DNA of 64,000 nt from Ruegeria atlantica (GTDB lineage: Bacteria > Pseudomonadota > Alphaproteobacteria > Rhodobacterales > Rhodobacteraceae): positions 620,001-684,000 of the forward strand of contig NZ_WQCF01000001.1 in NCBI RefSeq assembly GCF_013032455.1. Direction: 5' to 3'. Shown piece by piece: positions 47,357 to 59,003 of this stretch. The notes under the pieces were generated by a model. It made no database searches. It had not been told where the DNA came from and saw nothing but the letters and a program-made list of their open reading frames with translations. Positions within the stretch are counted from its first letter, which is position 1. The number at the start of each line of letters is the position of its first letter. A program made the position numbers and the translations under genes.

Positions 47357-47418
47357 AGCTACGTCACGTTGGCGCCGGTAAGGCTTCTTTTTTGTCAACT
47401 GGCATAGGGGGGATTGCT

Positions 47419-48810
47419 TTGAAACAACGCCTCTCGGCAATTTTGGCCGCCGATATGGTCGGGTACTCGCGCTTGATGGAAGTGGACGAGTTGGGTGTTT
47501 TGTCGCGTCAAAAGAAATACCGACGCGAACTGATTGATCCCGAAATCACACGCCGTCGCGGGAATATCGTCAAAACCACCGGAGATGGCATGTTGGCCAC
47601 ATTCGAGTCCGTACAGGACGCGGTTCAGTGTGCCGTCAAAATCCAACAGGTGATGAGTCTGAATGAAACAGAGTTAGACGATGATCAGAGAATTCGGTTT
47701 CGCGTCGGCATTAATCTGGGCGACGTGATTTTCGACGAAGGCGATATTTTCGGGGATGGTGTGAACGTGGCCGCGCGGCTTGAAGGGTTGGCGGAACCTG
47801 GTGGCGTATGCGTATCGGACATCGTGCATCAGGCAATTCAGGACCGGATCGACGCCCCATTCCGCGACATGGGCGGGCAACGTGTAAAAAACATCAGCCG
47901 CCCCATTCGTGTCTGGCACTGGTCACCTAAGGCAGCACCTGCGCGCGAGGTTCCGGAGATTTCGCTGCAGCAACGCGTAAAGTTCTGCAATTCGGCAGAT
48001 GGCACCAATCTCGCGTGGGCCTCGACCGGAGAGGGCGTGCCGATATTGAAAGCCCCCAATTGGCTCAACCACATTGAACATGAGTGGACCAGCCCGGTCT
48101 GGGGTGACTTCCTGTCCGAGATGTCCAAACTCTGCCAGTTGGTTCGGTTTGATCAGCGTGGCAACGGGCTATCTGACTGGGATGTTGATGACATTTCAGA
48201 AGACCGGATGATCGAAGACATGGTCGCGGTGGCCGACGCGTCCGGGCTTGAGAGTTTTGGCTTGCTGGGTATTAGCCAGGGGTCTGCATTCTCAATTCGA
48301 TTTGCAGCAAGATATCCGGAACGGGTGAAGTTTCTCGTTCTTCTTGGTGGCTTTTTACGAGGCCGCATGATGCGAGAAGACGCAGAAGCAGAACAATTCT
48401 ACCAAGCCGCCCGCGCTATGGTGTCTTCTGGCTGGGGGTCACCCAACCCTGTTTACCGGCATTTCTTTACATCCAGTTACATGCCGGACGCGACTCCCGA
48501 GGAAGGTGCCAGCTTTGACGAAATGCAGCGTATTTCCGCAAGCCCGGAAATCGCTTTGCGTATTTTGGAAATGAACGCCTACATAGACGCCAGCGCAGAC
48601 GCACAAAGCCTGAAGACTCCGACTCTGGTTCTGCATTCAAGGGGCGACATGGCGGCGCCTATAAGTGAAGGGCGTAAGACGGCTCGGGCAATCCCTACTG
48701 CCGAATTTATTGAACTCCCCGGAGCAAACCACTGCATGATACGCGGTCATCCAGGGTTTGATGAATTCTTTCAGGAAATTGAACCATTTCTGAAGGAAAA
48801 CTCAGATTGA
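47419..48810 (+). CDS. Class III adenylate cyclase fused to alpha/beta hydrolase
   Basis: 463 aa from the TTG at 47419, preceded by GGGGGGA and matching the family start MKQRLSAILAADMVGYSRLM; an upstream TTG at 47392 has no site. Cyclase domain at about 1-165 with metal Asp D12 and D56 (KTTGDGMLATFE) and GVNVAARLEG for the transition state. Alpha/beta hydrolase domain at about 187-463 with nucleophile S286 (GISQGS), D410 (SRGDMAAP) and H438 (GANHCM). Both active sites look intact. Cytoplasmic; the hydrolase may sense or process a small ester, but the substrate is unknown. Confidence 0.92.
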   Translation: MKQRLSAILAADMVGYSRLMEVDELGVLSRQKKYRRELIDPEITRRRGNIVKTTGDGMLATFESVQDAVQCAVKIQQVMSLNETELDDDQRIRFRVGINLGDVIFDEGDIFGDGVNVAARLEGLAEPGGVCVSDIVHQAIQDRIDAPFRDMGGQRVKNISRPIRVWHWSPKAAPAREVPEISLQQRVKFCNSADGTNLAWASTGEGVPILKAPNWLNHIEHEWTSPVWGDFLSEMSKLCQLVRFDQRGNGLSDWDVDDISEDRMIEDMVAVADASGLESFGLLGISQGSAFSIRFAARYPERVKFLVLLGGFLRGRMMREDAEAEQFYQAARAMVSSGWGSPNPVYRHFFTSSYMPDATPEEGASFDEMQRISASPEIALRILEMNAYIDASADAQSLKTPTLVLHSRGDMAAPISEGRKTARAIPTAEFIELPGANHCMIRGHPGFDEFFQEIEPFLKENSD

Positions 48811-49888: not shown

Positions 49889-49930
49889 ATCTTACCAAAG
49901 GCACAAGAAACGCACCTTAATGCAGATCAA
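49889..49930 (-). promoter_or_regulatory. FNR/FnrL-type promoter of the phasin-like gene
   Basis: Minus strand: TTGATCTGCATTAA (49930-49917, one mismatch to TTGAT-N4-ATCAA) centred 41.5 bp before a predicted start at about 49882, with TAAGAT as -10 at 49894-49889. Confidence 0.55.
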
Positions 49931-50045
49931 CCCCCCTTGTTTTTATGCCTTTCCGGCAGGAAATCGCAGCGGTTTATTCAATCTTTAGCGCACCCATTCC
50001 CACAGGATTGGCGCCCGATCAACTAGGCCCGGCTGGACATGTTGA

Positions 50046-50087
50046 TTGACATAGATCATAGCGTCTGAGAACCTCACATTGTAAAAT
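50046..50087 (+). promoter_or_regulatory. FNR/FnrL-type promoter without a downstream ORF
   Basis: TTGACATAGATCAT at 50046-50059 (TTGAC-N4-ATCAT, one mismatch to the FnrL consensus) and TAAAAT at 50082-50087 as -10. A start at about 50094 puts the box centre at -41.5, the class II activator position. Confidence 0.6.
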
Positions 50088-50093
50088 GTGAAT

Positions 50094-50214
50094 GTTTAAG
50101 AGTGATCTACGTTTGTCGACCTGTCCCCAATCGAACACGACGGCAAACGGAATTTTAAAGGCGTGGAAGTTCCACCAAGGGGCTCGGCAAGAGTGATGGC
50201 GAGCCCCTTTTTTT
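50094..50214 (+). ncRNA. Candidate FnrL-dependent small RNA
   Basis: About 120 nt between the FNR-type promoter at 50046 and a textbook intrinsic terminator at 50177-50214. No open frame with a ribosome site lies between them, and both neighbours point away or start later (phasin leftward from 49857, permease from 50366). A small GTGGA-AGT-TCCAC hairpin sits just before the terminator. The model is inferred from sequence; expression is untested. E. coli FnrS has the same general plan (FNR-activated, about 120 nt). Confidence 0.5.
50177..50214 (+). terminator. Strong intrinsic terminator with no upstream gene
   Basis: Perfect 10-bp stem AAGGGGCTCG/CGAGCCCCTT, 13-nt loop, then a run of T. It is rightward only (no T run on the other strand) and no rightward gene lies upstream since 48810. 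Confidence 0.9.
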
Positions 50215-50365
50215 AGATGAGCGGCATCTAAGTGGGCATTCGCGTTGAAGCACTGGACGTTCTGCTTTGTAGCAGAGGGGTAAATCCCGACGATCCGACA
50301 ACCGGCAAGCAAGCACAAGACATAACGATTGGCCATGTTTGCGGTACTAAACCGGAAACCCTTCG

Positions 50366-51595
50366 ATGAGAAAAAACATGAATGCTGTTGAACCTCAACA
50401 AAAACTCCGAAGGGCGCTCACAACTCCGCTGCTCACACTTTACGGCTTGGGTGTTACGGTTGGAGCAGGAATTTACGTACTGGTTGGTGCGACGGCAAAC
50501 ATAGCAGGCCCGTATGCTGCATTTTCATTTGTTGTCGCTGCGCTAGTGGTATCTTTGACCGCGCTTTCATACGCGGAGCTCGCTACTCGTTATCCCGTCA
50601 GCGCAGGTGAGGCAGCCTATGTCCAAGCGGGGTTTCAACGAAACTGGATGGCAGTATTGGTCGGCCTTGCCGTCGCTGCGTCTGGGGTTATTTCCGCTTC
50701 TGCAGTCGCGATTGGTGCGGCGTCATATCTGCACGCTTTGACCGGTGTTGGCATTTCTGTTTTGACCATCAGCGTTGTGCTTCTCATGGTGCTCATCGCG
50801 ATCTGGGGTATAACTGAGTCCGTGGTCGTCGCGGCAGTCATTACGGTCATCGAGATCGCGGGCCTTCTCTTTGTGATCAGTTGGGGCATGTCGATTGAGG
50901 AGCCACAGGGATACGCGCTCTCTTCAATGATGCCTTCCTTGGATATCGACGTGTGGAGGGGCATCTTCGCCGCTTCGCTCCTCGCATTTTTTGCATTCGT
51001 CGGCTTTGAGGATATGGCAAATGTCGCAGAAGAGGTAAAAGATCCGGTCCGCACAATCCCAAAGGCGATATTGCTGACGCTCATTCTGGCAACGGTATTG
51101 TATCTTGGAACTTCAATGACGGTTCTGCTTGTCGTCCCGATTGATGTTCTTTCCGCCTCCGCGGCTCCGCTTTCATTGGTATTCTCAGAGGCGCCCGAGT
51201 TGATCAAACAGGGTTTTTCCGCAGTCGCCATTGTAGCGACGGTCAATGGTGTATTGATCCAGATGATCATGGCATCGCGGGTAATCTACGGCCTTGCTGA
51301 CAGGGGCCACCTGCCAAAAACCCTGGCGACAGTGCCGCAAACGACCCAGACGCCAGTTGTTGCAACCCTGCTGGTCGTGGCGACAATTCTGTTTCTGACC
51401 CAAACTCTCCCAATCGGAATTCTAGCAGAACGTACGTCCCAGATCGTTCTGGGCGTCTTTGTACTGGTCAACGTTTCGCTAATCCTGTTGAAGATGAAGC
51501 CGAGCAAGTCAGAGGAGCACTTTCATGTACCTCTTTTCGTACCGATCCTTGGCGTGATCACCAGTACATTGCTTTTCGGGGCTGGATTTCTCTAA
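50366..51595 (+). CDS. APC family amino acid permease
   Basis: 409 aa, about 11-12 hydrophobic helices. The APC signature is at the N-terminus: LTLYGLGVTVGAGIYVLVG, then YAELATRYPVSAGEAAYV and FAFVGFEDMANVAEEVKDPVRTIPKAI. Slightly shorter than most members. Substrate unknown; could be an amino acid or polyamine. It lies after the sRNA terminator and 45 bp before the BT1-type transporter. Confidence 0.9.
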   Translation: MRKNMNAVEPQQKLRRALTTPLLTLYGLGVTVGAGIYVLVGATANIAGPYAAFSFVVAALVVSLTALSYAELATRYPVSAGEAAYVQAGFQRNWMAVLVGLAVAASGVISASAVAIGAASYLHALTGVGISVLTISVVLLMVLIAIWGITESVVVAAVITVIEIAGLLFVISWGMSIEEPQGYALSSMMPSLDIDVWRGIFAASLLAFFAFVGFEDMANVAEEVKDPVRTIPKAILLTLILATVLYLGTSMTVLLVVPIDVLSASAAPLSLVFSEAPELIKQGFSAVAIVATVNGVLIQMIMASRVIYGLADRGHLPKTLATVPQTTQTPVVATLLVVATILFLTQTLPIGILAERTSQIVLGVFVLVNVSLILLKMKPSKSEEHFHVPLFVPILGVITSTLLFGAGFL

Positions 51596-51640: not shown

Positions 51641-53257
51641 ATGAACACTGACCGATCTTCCATAGGAACTCAGCTCTCGGCCTGGTGGCACAGAACTTTT
51701 GTGGATCTGGCTCAGCAGTTGCAGTGGTCATATTTACCACCTTTGATGGTCTACTTCGCAGCCGGCGTGTCCGGCCTGACATCGGTCGTTGGCGCCTTCT
51801 TTCTTAAAGACTACCTTGATTTATCAGCGTCTTTCATTGCGGGGCTAGCATTTTGGGCGGGTCTTCCCTGGATTCTCAAAATGCCGCTTGGCCATATTGT
51901 TGATCTGTTTTGGCGTTGGAAGTCCCTGCTGATCCTGCTTGGCGCGTCACTGATCACCCTATCCTTGCTTACAATGTACGGGCTTGTGACAGCGCCGCTG
52001 GAAATGGCCAGCGTCATGCCATTAGAAGACTGGTACGTAATCGCCCTGCTCCTTGCTCCTTCGGGCTATGCCATTCAGGATGTTGTAGCTGACGCCATGA
52101 CGGTCGAAGCGGTGCCCAAGATCAATCAAGATGGTCGGCCGTTCTCGCCAGAAGAGACCCGTGCGCAGCACACTACGATGCAAACATTGGGCCGAGTTTC
52201 GATCATATCCGGGTTTGCAGCTGTTGCGGCGGTGAACATCTGGATTTTCTCCGGAACTGAAGATCTGCAAAAACCAGATCGCCTCGGGCTTTACGGCCAA
52301 GTTTACCTGATTGCCCTGATTATCCCCTTGCTCTCGGTCAGCGGAGTTGTGCTCCACACATTCATCCAGCGGCAGCGCATTCGACGAGGCCACTCACCTC
52401 ACGCCCCGGAACAGGCCACCGAGGTCAATTGGCCCATTTTGTTAGGGGGGCTCGCGTTTGTAGTGCTTAGCATCGTGTTGGGCACCGCCGATTTCGAATA
52501 TGCCCAAGAGACCATCTTTGCAGTGTCCCTTACTGTGATCATGTATCTCATGTCACGGCTGCTGAAAGAGTTAGAACCAGCGCAGGCGAAAGCCCTGATC
52601 GGAACGGCGATAATTATTTTTGTATTTCGCGCCACCCCTCTACCCGGTCCGGGCCTGACTTGGTTCGAAATTGATGAATTGGGATTTGATGAACAGTTCC
52701 TGGCGATCCTCGCTTTGTTGACATCCCTGCTGGCTTTGCTCGGATTAATTATTCTGAGGCCCTTTATGGCCAATCGCTCAATTGCGCAGGTTGTAGTGGT
52801 GCTGACAATTGCTGCGGGTTTCCTCGCCCTGCCCAATCTTGCCCTTTATTACGGTGTGCATGAGTGGACGGCTGCACATACTGGTGGCGTCGTCGATGCG
52901 AGATTTATTGCCATTCTCGATACCGCTGTCGAGTCACCACTCGGGCAGATAGCGATGGTTCCGATGTTGGCTTGGATTGCACGCAACGCCCCGGTTCACC
53001 TGAAAGCGACATTTTTTGCGGTGATGGCATCGTTCACCAACATGGCGTTGTCGGCCAGCAGTCTTGGCACCAAGTATCTGAACCAAACATTCATTGTAAC
53101 GCGCGCGGTTACTAACCCGGAAACCGGTGTCGTCACCTCCACCGCTGATTACAGCCAACTTGGGTATCTGTTGATCGTGGTTGCCTTGATCTCTGTGGTC
53201 GTTCCGCTGACGGTGGTCTTCTGTGTGCAATGCTCTCGTTTCCAAACCAGCGAGTAA
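51641..53257 (+). CDS. BT1/folate-biopterin-type MFS transporter
   Basis: 538 aa, 12 or more hydrophobic helices. GAFFLKDYLDLSASFIAGL and GLPWILKMPLGHIVDLFWRWK match the characteristic first-loop motifs of the BT1 (folate-biopterin) transporter branch; YAIQDVVADAMTVEAV is the second-half signature. In bacteria the substrate is often unknown. Stop abuts the stop of the convergent FHA-protease gene. Confidence 0.82.
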   Translation: MNTDRSSIGTQLSAWWHRTFVDLAQQLQWSYLPPLMVYFAAGVSGLTSVVGAFFLKDYLDLSASFIAGLAFWAGLPWILKMPLGHIVDLFWRWKSLLILLGASLITLSLLTMYGLVTAPLEMASVMPLEDWYVIALLLAPSGYAIQDVVADAMTVEAVPKINQDGRPFSPEETRAQHTTMQTLGRVSIISGFAAVAAVNIWIFSGTEDLQKPDRLGLYGQVYLIALIIPLLSVSGVVLHTFIQRQRIRRGHSPHAPEQATEVNWPILLGGLAFVVLSIVLGTADFEYAQETIFAVSLTVIMYLMSRLLKELEPAQAKALIGTAIIIFVFRATPLPGPGLTWFEIDELGFDEQFLAILALLTSLLALLGLIILRPFMANRSIAQVVVVLTIAAGFLALPNLALYYGVHEWTAAHTGGVVDARFIAILDTAVESPLGQIAMVPMLAWIARNAPVHLKATFFAVMASFTNMALSASSLGTKYLNQTFIVTRAVTNPETGVVTSTADYSQLGYLLIVVALISVVVPLTVVFCVQCSRFQTSE

Positions 53258-54850
53258 TCACTGGCTTTTTGCCTCACCCAGTAAAGATTTGAGATGCGCA
53301 ACCGGAACGCCGATATTTGAACCGCCGAATTCAGGCAATATCGCAGCGTTAATTGCAACCACCTCACCTTTGCGGTTCAACGCAGGCCCCCCACTCCCGC
53401 CGGATGTGGTCTCTGCGTCATATACGAGGGAACCCAGACTTGTTCGCGCCACAATACCCCGGCTGGCAAGCGGTTGAATTTTATTTTGCTCGGAAAGCCG
53501 GGACGCAATCGACCAGAAATTAATGGTTCCTTCTTCCTCAACCGTTTTCAGAAAGTCCCGCCCAGCCTGCGCGATCAGCGCCTTTAAACCCGTTGGGTAT
53601 CCCAATAAGTATACTTCTTCGCCGACACGCGGCGCGGTTTCGGCCAGCGGAATTCCAAGCCCCTGCACCCGGCCCGGATCGACGGACAAAAGCGCCAAAT
53701 CTGCCATCTCACTATACTGATCCAGATTGGCCTCTATTGGTTCGGAATGACCGGGCAGATAAGCCAACAGTCTCAGCATTTCCGCCTCCAGCCCTGCATT
53801 TTTAAGGGCTTTCTCCCTGTCTCCGGAAGTCCAGGGCAACGCGACATGACGATTGGTGGCCAACAAAGGAACCCCCTCAAGCAGAAAACCCGTTCCTGTG
53901 AACTGGAATTCAGCAGGTTCGCCTGCCGCGTCAGGCTCGATCCAAGGCTGCCCGAACGGAGTTTGAAGCGTTTCACCATTCGGCCCCAACACGTGCCGCA
54001 GCAGCTTCCCGCTTTCTATGTGACGCAATCCATATGCACCCTGGATAAAGGCAACAGACTGGGTTGAGGCCTTGATAATCCGTGTTGGTGCACCCGCTTG
54101 TTGTTCAAGCGTTCCAAGACGCTCTTCGGTCGACATGACCTGATTTTCAAACGCACTTCTGAGAGCGGCCAAATCTTCGGGCGTAAGCACGTCCTCTCGC
54201 GTCTGCGCCAGCATGACCGCAACCGCTTCGATCTTATGGGCTTCCTGTTCGATACTGTCCGCCAACCTTCTGTCGTTTTGATAAAGCAGGAACACAAGAC
54301 CAGCGATGACAAGTAACGCAGCAAGGACAGTGATCCTGAAAAGGATAGTGGTCTGGGATGCAAGCCGGCGTCCGCTGTCACTCAGCGCACTGGACATCCT
54401 TCTGGCGAAAGGTCGGCGGCTCATCCGGGCGTAAGCGTAGGCGTCGCTCAGGATGTCTTCCACCGTATGATGTGCAGGAAACGAGTGATTGCACAGTCTG
54501 TACCGAGACATCGGACCTTTTTCGCCGAACTCAACCATATCGCCAAACCCAAGACGTATTGACGATACTTTTTGCCCATTAACCCATACGTTTCGCCCGG
54601 GTGCCGCAGATATCGTATAGCTGTCGTCGACCCACTGAAGGGTTGCGATATCGTTGTCATGTGGTGGCGTGTCGTCTTTAGGCCGAAGGCTCAGGCTCCT
54701 GTTGGCTCCGACTGAAACGGTCAAGGCGTTGTGGACAAGCCAGGTCACGTTTCCACGCGACGGGCCGGTCAGGCTCTCTAGATAGGCACGCACGTCTCTG
54801 TCACCGACGCCCGGTGGTGGTCTCACGCCATTATCATCCAGGTTTTGCAT
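53258..54850 (-). CDS. FHA-domain, membrane-anchored trypsin-like serine protease
   Basis: 530 aa from the ATG at 54850; an in-frame start at 54916 adds 22 residues with no better site. Order: FHA-like domain at about 35-120 (ISAAPGRNVWVNGQKVSSIRLGFGDMVEFG), a basic segment, one transmembrane helix at about 173-190, a coiled coil near 195-250, then a trypsin-like domain with H335 (ATNRHVALPW), D384 (EMADLALLSVD) and S486 (TTSGGSGGPALN). So an N-in, C-out protease with a cytoplasmic phosphothreonine reader. Target unknown; could be an envelope stress sensor. Confidence 0.88.
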   Translation of the reverse strand: MQNLDDNGVRPPPGVGDRDVRAYLESLTGPSRGNVTWLVHNALTVSVGANRSLSLRPKDDTPPHDNDIATLQWVDDSYTISAAPGRNVWVNGQKVSSIRLGFGDMVEFGEKGPMSRYRLCNHSFPAHHTVEDILSDAYAYARMSRRPFARRMSSALSDSGRRLASQTTILFRITVLAALLVIAGLVFLLYQNDRRLADSIEQEAHKIEAVAVMLAQTREDVLTPEDLAALRSAFENQVMSTEERLGTLEQQAGAPTRIIKASTQSVAFIQGAYGLRHIESGKLLRHVLGPNGETLQTPFGQPWIEPDAAGEPAEFQFTGTGFLLEGVPLLATNRHVALPWTSGDREKALKNAGLEAEMLRLLAYLPGHSEPIEANLDQYSEMADLALLSVDPGRVQGLGIPLAETAPRVGEEVYLLGYPTGLKALIAQAGRDFLKTVEEEGTINFWSIASRLSEQNKIQPLASRGIVARTSLGSLVYDAETTSGGSGGPALNRKGEVVAINAAILPEFGGSNIGVPVAHLKSLLGEAKSQ

Positions 54851-55206
54851 CTTCGACCCCGCTTCAAAGGCCACAAAGGTACTGTAACACGCGGCAACCC
54901 AAATCCCACTGTCCACCTTAGGTGCAACAATCGCTTAGACCACGACCTGAGCATGCCGTTTTGGTAGATTTGGCAGATATTGCCCAATCAAAAATTTACT
55001 GGGTCGCAACTCAAAGAGGGCCGGTCAATGACCAGCCGTCTGCGCCAATGGCCTACAAAACGAGAATGGATAGCGAAGCTTTTTACCTAGAGGACACCTT
55101 GATCTTGCGCAATCACAAGGGTCTTGATCGCATATTTTGCTCAGCCTAGCGTACCCCCAGGACCAATCAGGAGTGGCCTCCCTTTCGAACATTGGAGCAA
55201 AACCGA

Positions 55207-56779: not shown

Positions 56780-56821
56780 TTGATTGAGATCAAGGGCCTA
56801 CACACTCAAACTCACCATACT
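56780..56821 (+). promoter_or_regulatory. FNR/FnrL promoter of the HemG-like gene
   Basis: TTGATTGAGATCAA (56780-56793) is a perfect FNR consensus. A -10 CATACT at 56816-56821 puts its centre at -41.5 from a start at about 56828, 31 nt before the ATG. The remaining part of 56512-56779 has no gene. Confidence 0.75.
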
Positions 56822-56858
56822 CGGAACGCTATTCAGACCGATTTTTGGGAGGATCGGA

Positions 56859-57422
56859 ATGACAGTGCTTATTGCATTCGCTACTGTTGAGGGCCAAACG
56901 GCCAAAATTGCAAATTTTATCAACGACATCACCACGGCAGCTGGATACACAGCAAACCTGATCAATACCGATGAATTAACCGGCCAAGTTTCACTGGACG
57001 GCATGGACCAAGTCATACTTTTGGCACCCGTCCACCAACGCCGACACCCGAAGTCATTTGAAGCTTTTGTAAGCTCGCACAAGGAGGCGTTGGCGGCAGT
57101 AAAATCTCTTGTGCTTTCTGTTAGCCTAAAGGCCGCTTTTGCATCAGGACAGGAAGAGGCCAGGGACTATCTGACTGAAATGTTGCTGCGAACGAATTTG
57201 AAACCAGACGCGTCCGCGCTGGTCGCCGGCGCAGTGCGGCCCGAAAGTTATGACTATTTTGACAAAGAGATCATTCAGCACGTTGTTCTATTAGGACAGA
57301 AAGTAAATCCCAAAGATGGCACACAAGAGTTTACCGATTGGGATGCACTACAATCCACAGTGATGGGGTTTTTGGACGGGAGCGACGTGACCAATACCGA
57401 CCTTTCTCAGATAAGCCGGTAA
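56859..57422 (+). CDS. Flavodoxin-like protoporphyrinogen dehydrogenase (HemG-like)
   Basis: 187 aa from the ATG at 56859, with GGGAGG 6 nt before it (an upstream open extension is not used). MTVLIAFATVEGQTAKIANFI is the FMN-binding flavodoxin start of HemG-type enzymes, and GMDQVILLAPVHQRRHPKSFEAFV is their substrate region; E. coli HemG is 181 aa. HemG transfers electrons from protoporphyrinogen IX to quinones and works without oxygen. A perfect FNR box upstream fits anaerobic heme synthesis. Flavodoxin-like relatives of other function remain possible. Confidence 0.75.
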   Translation: MTVLIAFATVEGQTAKIANFINDITTAAGYTANLINTDELTGQVSLDGMDQVILLAPVHQRRHPKSFEAFVSSHKEALAAVKSLVLSVSLKAAFASGQEEARDYLTEMLLRTNLKPDASALVAGAVRPESYDYFDKEIIQHVVLLGQKVNPKDGTQEFTDWDALQSTVMGFLDGSDVTNTDLSQISR

Positions 57423-57501
57423 AGCTGTCTAATTAGCCACCGCGTTGCCTGCGGTTAGATATTTCCACTGGCGAACAAATTTTTGGGGCAGCTTGCGAAA
57501 T

Positions 57502-58347
57502 TCAGTGCCCAAACAAGACAGGAAAACTTACTTGTTCCAACATCGCCTGCGTGATTCCACCAAAAACGGACTCGCGTAAATATGAATGTCCGTAGGCGCC
57601 CATAATAATAAGGTCAGCGCCTACTTCTTTAGCACGCTCTTGAATACATTGCTGAATCGTAAGACCACCCCTAGGGAACTGAGACACGGTTACGCGACAC
57701 CCATGATGACTGAGCCACGTGGCAATGTCGGCACCAGTGTCTTGGCCTTCTGGATCATGTGCCGAAGGCGGATCAATGCAAGCTATCACAACTTCCTTGG
57801 CTTCCAGGAAATAGTGCAAACCTAAGTGCGCAGCCCTAGATGCAGCGAAGCTTCCATCCCATGCGAAGAAAACACAGTCACGTTGAGCAAACGGATTTCC
57901 ATTGATCATCAAGGCCGCCGGTGAATGAAACAACACTCCATGCCCAACCTCGCGAAATATTTCGGGGTCATTGCGCAATCCCGCGTCTAGGAAGGCAACA
58001 TCACAGGTGTACGACTGCCGCGCTGCCAGATGCTTTAAATCCGCACCCGAGCCAATGGAAACTTTCACGTTTGCCGATACGGCCTTGCTTGCCAGCAGTG
58101 CCTCAACTTCAGTGGCGCGGGATTCTAGTACGGCCCTCTTTTCTTCTAATTGATCTAGCCAATTGGCCGGCAGTCCTGCATCAAAGAACTTACTGGTTCC
58201 ATACTTGAAGTATGGCAGGTTAGGTAACGAAGCGAGGAGGATGCAGTTCAAATGGCCTTCATGACTTTGAGCGGCCTCAGCGCAATCCAATATCGATTTA
58301 TCACTGGTGTCTGCGCCAATGAAATAATTAGAACTCCTACGTTTCAT
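57502..58347 (-). CDS. Universal stress protein, tandem domain
   Basis: 281 aa, two Usp folds in tandem. The second domain has the nucleotide motif GAYGHSYLRESVFGGIT (Gly-2x-Gly-9x-Gly-Gly). The first domain is more diverged. AGATCAGGT-type site before the ATG. Convergent with the HemG-like gene. A CRP/FNR-like palindrome lies 81 bp upstream. Confidence 0.92.
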   Translation of the reverse strand: MKRRSSNYFIGADTSDKSILDCAEAAQSHEGHLNCILLASLPNLPYFKYGTSKFFDAGLPANWLDQLEEKRAVLESRATEVEALLASKAVSANVKVSIGSGADLKHLAARQSYTCDVAFLDAGLRNDPEIFREVGHGVLFHSPAALMINGNPFAQRDCVFFAWDGSFAASRAAHLGLHYFLEAKEVVIACIDPPSAHDPEGQDTGADIATWLSHHGCRVTVSQFPRGGLTIQQCIQERAKEVGADLIIMGAYGHSYLRESVFGGITQAMLEQVSFPVLFGH

Positions 58348-58427
58348 ACCTGATCTCCGATCAAAACACTCCAGCGGTTAAGAAGCTGACCAAGATAACA
58401 TCTTTGCAGCCCTGTGGAGTTCGGCAA

Positions 58428-58441
58428 TGATCCCGATCATT
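58428..58441. promoter_or_regulatory. FNR-like palindrome upstream of the tandem Usp gene
   Basis: ATGATCCCGATCAT, extended by CA/TG to a 7-bp perfect dyad with 4 nt between. Inner TGAT/ATCA matches CRP/FNR sites; outer bases differ from FNR. No -10 sits at the class II distance. Confidence 0.4.
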
Positions 58442-58559
58442 GTGCGGCATCCCGTGTTCGAAATATGCGAGCAGCAGAGCACCTAGCGCGCCAGAACTAT
58501 CACACAATCATATCTCGAACACTTGGATACTATTGGCGCAACGCCATCGGTCGTTCTTC

Positions 58560-58937
58560 CTATTTTGGTAACATGAAGAACTCTTCCAGTACTATTTTGC
58601 CCTCAGCTACCGAATAAACTGCGATTTCGCGAAGGGTCATGTGTTGCCCTGTTTCCTTCTGCTTCACCTCAGCTTTGAACCGCACTGCGAAACGGTTGGG
58701 GGGGTGAACATAGGGGCCGTCCACGTCGAGTTCCAGAATTTCGTGCGAAGCAAGCCAATCTTCTCTTTTCCCCTTGATAGCGTCCCGGCTCTTGGTAATG
58801 CGAAATTGTCGAACCGGAGGCACAACGGCCTCAATTGACTGCGCGTTTTCCGCGTACATTTCATCGACGTTTGCGAGACCTCTGCGATCACGCATTGCCT
58901 GAACGAATGCCTTTCCAGTTTCGATTAGTGCTTCCAT
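58560..58937 (-). CDS. SnoaL-like (NTF2-fold) protein
   Basis: 125 aa. NTF2/SnoaL-like alpha+beta fold: MYAENAQSIEAVVPP, then KGKREDWLASHEILELDVDGPYVHPPNRFAVRF and a C-terminal AVYSVAEGKIVLEEFFML. Members are small enzymes or carriers with no shared catalytic residue. AGAGGG before the ATG. Perfect FNR box 53 bp upstream. Confidence 0.8.
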   Translation of the reverse strand: MEALIETGKAFVQAMRDRRGLANVDEMYAENAQSIEAVVPPVRQFRITKSRDAIKGKREDWLASHEILELDVDGPYVHPPNRFAVRFKAEVKQKETGQHMTLREIAVYSVAEGKIVLEEFFMLPK

Positions 58938-58961
58938 GATAAACCCTCTGTTTGTACAGGC

Positions 58962-59003
58962 ACATTACCTCTTTTTCGCTTTGCCATTATTGACAAGGAT
59001 CAA
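58962..59003 (-). promoter_or_regulatory. FNR/FnrL promoter of the SnoaL-like gene
   Basis: TTGACAAGGATCAA (58990-59003) has perfect TTGAC/ATCAA half-sites. On the minus strand TAATGT at 58967-58962 is a -10 that puts the box centre at -41.5 of a start at about 58955, 18 nt before the ATG. The region 59004-59273 has no gene. Confidence 0.75.

Follow-up and report, generated by a model that had tools for sequence, protein, structure and literature searches.

The question raised by this locus is whether the FNR-type box at 50046-50059 and the hairpins that follow it make up a small RNA (sRNA) with a promoter of its own, or whether they belong to the transporter operon that lies downstream. The window analysed here (the whole stretch of DNA, 64,000 nucleotides in length) had been read in the original prediction as carrying a stand-alone, oxygen-regulated sRNA. 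Control of an sRNA by FNR is known in E. coli and, in passages of PMC4263372, is suggested by ChIP-seq in Rhodobacter sphaeroides. In the titles and abstract openings that were searched, no oxygen-switched sRNA of this locus was described in the roseobacters, a large marine bacterial group, and as far as these searches go the RNA is undescribed. The features discussed below are collected in Table 1.

Table 1. Features of the RNA locus and of the genes downstream of it
Feature	Position	Strand	Remarks
FNR-type box TTGACATAGATCAT	50046-50059	+	one mismatch to TTGAYN4RTCAA; mostly TTGACATAGATCAA in homologues
-10-like hexamer TAAAAT	50082-50087	+	at class II distance from the FNR-type box
Predicted transcription start	50094	+	predicted from spacing alone
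Hairpin A	50110-50149	+	stem 50110-50117 / 50142-50149; 24-nt C-rich loop; three pairs changed on both sides
C-rich unpaired loop stretch CCTGTCCCCAA	50120-50130	+	conserved; candidate seed site
Hairpin B	50163-50175	+	5-bp stem; 97.3% of cells paired; no compensatory change
Hairpin C	50177-50209	+	arms 50177-50186 / 50200-50209; 10 pairs, G+C-rich, -21.5 kcal/mol
Run of seven Ts after hairpin C	50208-50214	+	intrinsic-terminator-like site
Amino-acid permease (APC, PF13520)	50366-51595	+	first gene downstream; probable client of the RNA's promoter
BT1-family transporter (PF03092)	51641-53257	+	next gene; adjacent in 15/16 loci; in G026 shortened to 163 aa
Trypsin-like protease	53258-54916	-	after the BT1-family transporter

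Promoter elements

The near-consensus FNR box and the TAAAAT hexamer at class II spacing, both part of the original prediction, were found in place. The centre of the box falls at 50052.5, which is -41.5 relative to 50094. A box that departs from TTGAYN4RTCAA at no more than one position was present in all fifteen full homologues of the RNA, in all six short forms, and in the genomes G037 and G042, where the half-sites are kept and the four-base spacer is different. Boxes of this quality are not rare, with nine of them occurring within the window, and it is the conservation of the locus in 16 of the 54 genus genomes, together with the covariation of the RNA, that lifts it above chance. In most relatives the -10 stretch reads TGAAAT or another variant instead of TAAAAT and is weaker.

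Neither a sigma-70-type promoter nor a terminator was reported at the RNA locus by a simple consensus scan, the rules of which require a -35 hexamer for a promoter and a loop of 3-8 for a terminator (the loop of hairpin C is 13). Activator-dependent promoters may have no -35 hexamer.

Structure and coding potential of the RNA

The sense strand of 50094-50214 folds into three hairpins (A, B and C) at -41.1 kcal/mol (z -2.55), with one of 200 shuffles folding as well. Pairing was followed through fifteen sequences, these being the BLASTN loci other than L017 (the short form of G026, whose row was misaligned), with G042 not included. A total of 98.8% of the 330 cells were paired, and pairing dropped to 38.0-48.5% when the partners were slid out of register. 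Both partners had changed in five of the 22 pairs, where shuffling gave a mean of 1.7; the count of five was reached by three of 500 shuffles, a proportion that is not a probability because the sequences are related. As for the strand, seven G-U cells were counted on the + strand against three A-C cells that could pair on the other strand alone, which favours + strand transcription. A stretch similar to the C-rich loop CCTGTCCCCAA is also found in the distant G042.

The original prediction saw no rightward open reading frame between promoter and terminator. A 34-codon frame does exist within the RNA (ATG at 50092, stop ending at 50196), although it is probably not a gene. Eight of the fifteen homologues keep the frame open for 33-70 codons, two have it shortened (to 22 and 17 codons) and the other five meet a stop at codon 3; the changes by codon position (52/55/39) do not favour third positions. 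A small protein at 50092-50196 was rejected on account of these early stops and the missing third-position bias.

Judged from its sequence and from that of its relatives, the locus is a real structured RNA behind an FNR-type box. Of the original prediction, a discrete, conserved, structured and apparently non-coding RNA of about 115-120 nt with a conserved box is supported, and it is the orphan status of its promoter that does not survive the comparison given below.

Conservation and range of the RNA

BLASTN with the 186-nt stretch gave matches in 16 of the 54 genus genomes, its own genome included, and a covariance model built from fifteen sequences likewise matched 16 of the 54, again with its own genome counted. 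The two sets differ by one member each, as G026 was matched by BLASTN alone and G042 by the covariance model alone. Sequence identity, measured in windows over thirteen of the fifteen full forms (G004 and G016 left out; the late windows contain gaps), is 0.71-0.86 over the part that runs from the box through hairpin C; in the spacer that leads to the permease it is 0.41-0.67, with a step from 0.79 to 0.61 directly after hairpin C.

In a scan of 394 genomes of the family, about one per genus, G000 (the genome studied here) and its congener G042 were the sole matches of the covariance model, and the 392 other genera, each represented by a single genome, gave nothing; the scan used strict filters with nine candidates scored per genome and has a low sensitivity, by which distant relatives may be missed. 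A search of the whole window against Rfam at the gathering cut-off returned two tRNAs and no family at the RNA locus. Rfam contains a family named FnrS. When 50000-50260 was searched permissively (E up to 10), BjrC68, snoTBR7 and aceE-II alone were returned and FnrS was not matched. BjrC68 (RF02353), an sRNA of Bradyrhizobiaceae, is the best of these and resembles the present RNA in having a small hairpin and, after it, a G+C-rich one like a terminator, but the Ruegeria RNA scores 16.3 bits (E 0.063), far short of the cut-off of 39, and is not a member. Membership of a known RNA family was rejected on these Rfam searches, and our preferred reading is a Ruegeria-specific RNA.

Hairpin C and the T-run

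The 10-bp GC stem and the T run ending at 50214 are present as originally described. In all fifteen full forms the folding energy of hairpin C is between -18.5 and -25.2 kcal/mol. The eight bases after it contain seven Ts in this strain and in G027, five in G002 and G008, and three to four in the other eleven. Since the T tail is strong in only two of the fifteen full RNAs, termination at hairpin C, which is likely in this strain, appears doubtful in most relatives. Conservation among relatives, which the original prediction had named as a check, is uneven, with the box and the stems kept and both TAAAAT and the strong T-run less conserved.

The permease operon and its link to the box

The permease, the BT1-family transporter and the trypsin-like protease were found as a set downstream of the RNA in fifteen of the sixteen BLASTN loci, and fourteen of the fifteen full RNAs stand before the permease; G004 is the exception in both counts. 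Permease matches at E <= 1e-60 were found in 23 of the 54 genus genomes, 22 of them at no less than 80% identity and the remaining one (G025) at 44%. Upstream of every one of the 22 close orthologues there is a box with no more than one mismatch. The state of the RNA among these 22 varies, as it is full in fourteen, divergent in G042 (40 bits), short in six and partial in G037.

A wider survey of permease relatives in named genomes took the best 80 of 173 loci, with the box scan run on all 80 and the RNA model on 49 of them. Counts were compared with those of 118 control patterns, which are permuted palindromes sharing part of the motif, and the loci are not independent by descent. Within 350 nt, a box with at most one mismatch was found at all eighteen Ruegeria/Tritonibacter loci (control mean 1.05, maximum 17), at twelve of the next 22 loci (mean 0.56, maximum 6) and at fourteen of the 40 more distant loci (mean 2.05, maximum 14, a value that two of the 118 controls reach). 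Perfect boxes numbered 11, 3 and 6 in the 18, 22 and 40 loci, and these numbers were reached by 0, 4 and 0 of the 118 controls respectively. The 22 next loci are L104-L126 without L107, mostly Rhodobacterales by title, and none of them matched the RNA model.

A box of the kind found in the supposed orphan promoter precedes the permease in 22 of 22 close orthologues and in twelve of 22 loci without an RNA match. Because the box stands before the permease where the RNA is not matched, the link between box and permease reaches past the RNA and is probably older than it. The promoter at 50046-50087 probably also serves the permease operon.

Short forms and the case of G004

The six short forms make up one group in the permease tree (support 0.872) and are placed beside G016, a genome with a full RNA. 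All six have lost hairpins A and B as well as the 5' GGGG arm of hairpin C. The box and the promoter stretch are kept in them, and from the eroded hairpin it is about 60 nt downstream to the permease start region. Some of the short forms among the named loci gave weak matches to the RNA model (15-25 bits). As A and B were lost together with the GGGG arm of C, with box and permease remaining, the three hairpins appear to be one unit that can be separated from the promoter, the latter being retained while the RNA decays.

The opposite arrangement is seen in G004. Its RNA is full (139.2 bits) and its box perfect, yet this genome gave no permease match at E <= 1e-60. The divergence of this RNA is ordinary, with a mean of 0.151 compared to 0.113-0.202 in the other nine (ten of the fifteen full forms were compared). 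G004 is a single case and the loss of the operon could be recent. The permease loci with a box only, the full forms, the eroded clade and G004 together provide a series for the possible origin of an sRNA in, and its separation from, an mRNA leader.

Possible roles of the RNA

The explanation that we favour, and to which we give an even chance, is that of a Ruegeria RNA activated by an FnrL-type protein on the promoter of the permease operon, ended by a terminator in this strain and acting as an sRNA with read-through into the operon. An FNR/FnrL-type protein would bind 50046-50059 at low oxygen, as the box and its spacing suggest, and transcription would begin near 50094, where that spacing places the start. 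The first 120 nt or so would fold into the three hairpins, in keeping with their conservation and covariation, and in this strain hairpin C and the seven Ts would end many of the transcripts at about 50214 to give a non-coding RNA, the C-rich loop at 50120-50130 being its likely contact with target mRNAs. Transcripts that read through would enter the permease/BT1 operon, which the box-permease link points to as the older client of the promoter, and the sRNA would have arisen inside the leader of an oxygen-controlled operon. A more far-reaching form of this explanation, which we hold as tentative and rather unlikely, is a trans-acting, oxygen-switched and Ruegeria-specific sRNA that was born in the transporter operon leader using its FNR promoter and silences aerobic mRNAs at low oxygen through the C-rich loop, with one lineage having kept the sRNA and lost the operon. 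The favoured explanation has on its side the covariation, the strand preference of the G-U cells, the fall in identity after hairpin C, the RNA of G004, the joint decay of the three hairpins in the short forms and the box at permease loci that the RNA model does not match. Against it count the weak T tails of most relatives, the place of fourteen of the fifteen full RNAs before the permease, which would suit a cis leader, G004 being a single case, and the perfect-box count of 3 in the 22 next loci, which some controls also reach. The loop complement TTGGGGACAG, too, was not enriched in five genomes, where 45 matches were found against 44 for the reversed control and four of the 45 are the RNA itself. 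Of these 45 sites 30 were examined, and in three of them a possible start codon of a long frame follows within 70 nt.

A real, though minority, possibility is that the hairpins are a cis-acting 5' leader (an attenuator or stability element) of an FnrL-driven permease/BT1 operon and have no role in trans. Such a leader would agree with a box-permease link that reaches beyond the RNA, with the permease being next downstream in fifteen of sixteen loci, and with the weaker T tails of thirteen of the fifteen full RNAs, which favour read-through. It agrees less well with the poor conservation of the roughly 150 nt that separate hairpin C from the permease start, with the full RNA that G004 has without the operon, and with a loop-to-hairpin-C pairing of six, noted by eye and possible in many relatives, that comes to only four here. 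The terminator-like site of this strain, the stop of conservation at hairpin C and again G004 would suit the stand-alone sRNA of the original prediction, similar to FnrS and with an orphan promoter unrelated to the permease. We nevertheless consider this improbable, given the box before the permease in every close orthologue and at loci without an RNA match, and given the short forms, in which the eroded hairpin is no more than about 60 nt away from where the permease begins. Lastly, the box might serve mainly a divergent gene on the - strand, since a perfect box lies 105-133 nt before the predicted start of a Na/Pi cotransporter in ten of eleven gene models (the eleventh model is one half of a gene that is split in two in G048). 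This is very improbable, as the cotransporter gene is not adjacent to the box in this window, the divergent phasin gene found here has its own box at 49917-49930 in a place conserved in nine of eleven relatives, and the + strand RNA stays conserved.

Comparison with known small RNAs

The plan of E. coli FnrS, namely an FNR-type box, class II spacing, a short non-coding RNA and a 3' hairpin with a T-run, is shared by the predicted Ruegeria RNA of this strain, which on the other hand probably shares its promoter with a transporter operon and falls below every Rfam cut-off. FnrS is named as an FNR target in passages of PMC4263372, which also report FnrL ChIP-seq sites in the putative promoter regions of the R. 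sphaeroides sRNAs RSs0019 and RSs2461. These are FnrL-linked sRNAs of a related alphaproteobacterium, and the likeness is one of description. Within the genus Ruegeria itself, a survey of sRNAs in R. pomeroyi DSS-3 used carbon- and nitrogen-limited cultures (PMC4809877), and the words 'oxygen' and 'Fnr' are absent from its main text; the likeness to this set is that of genus. The FnrL regulon of Dinoroseobacter shibae is described, in parts of PMC5398030, as including universal stress proteins that FnrL activates by interacting directly, and neither 'permease' nor 'small RNA' occurs in the main text of that study.

The FNR-type regulator and neighbouring sites

A total of 30 perfect TTGAYN4RTCAA sites were found in the genome, compared to nine for the reversed control. 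An FNR-type regulator encoded in this genome (L198; G000 C7) has N-terminal cysteines at 33, 36, 44 and 47, with numbering that begins at the first Met of its frame, and we take this four-cysteine cluster to be the mark of an oxygen-sensing FNR. Four conserved cysteines are mentioned in a passage of PMC2908626.

Two of the perfect sites, at 56780 and 58990, lie within the 64-kb window. The one at 56780-56793 overlaps the start called for a flavodoxin-domain gene (56784-57422), and the one at 58990-59003 has a SnoaL-like gene on one side and a cupin gene on the other. The region around 56780-59003 looks like an FNR-regulated island.

On the other side of the RNA locus, the box at 49917-49930 (one mismatch) precedes the phasin start (49857) by about 60 nt, and the phasin gene of nine of the eleven relatives has a box at the corresponding place (-73). 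As this box is kept, the phasin gene looks oxygen-regulated, and the same may hold for the universal stress protein gene next to it. The Na/Pi cotransporter gene was observed to be divergent from the RNA and to share its box at L018-L021, L024, L025, L027-L029 and L031, with the cotransporter domain tested in one locus, L024. Further upstream in the window, 47392-48810 encodes a protein of 472 aa that joins an adenylate/guanylate cyclase domain to an alpha/beta-hydrolase domain.
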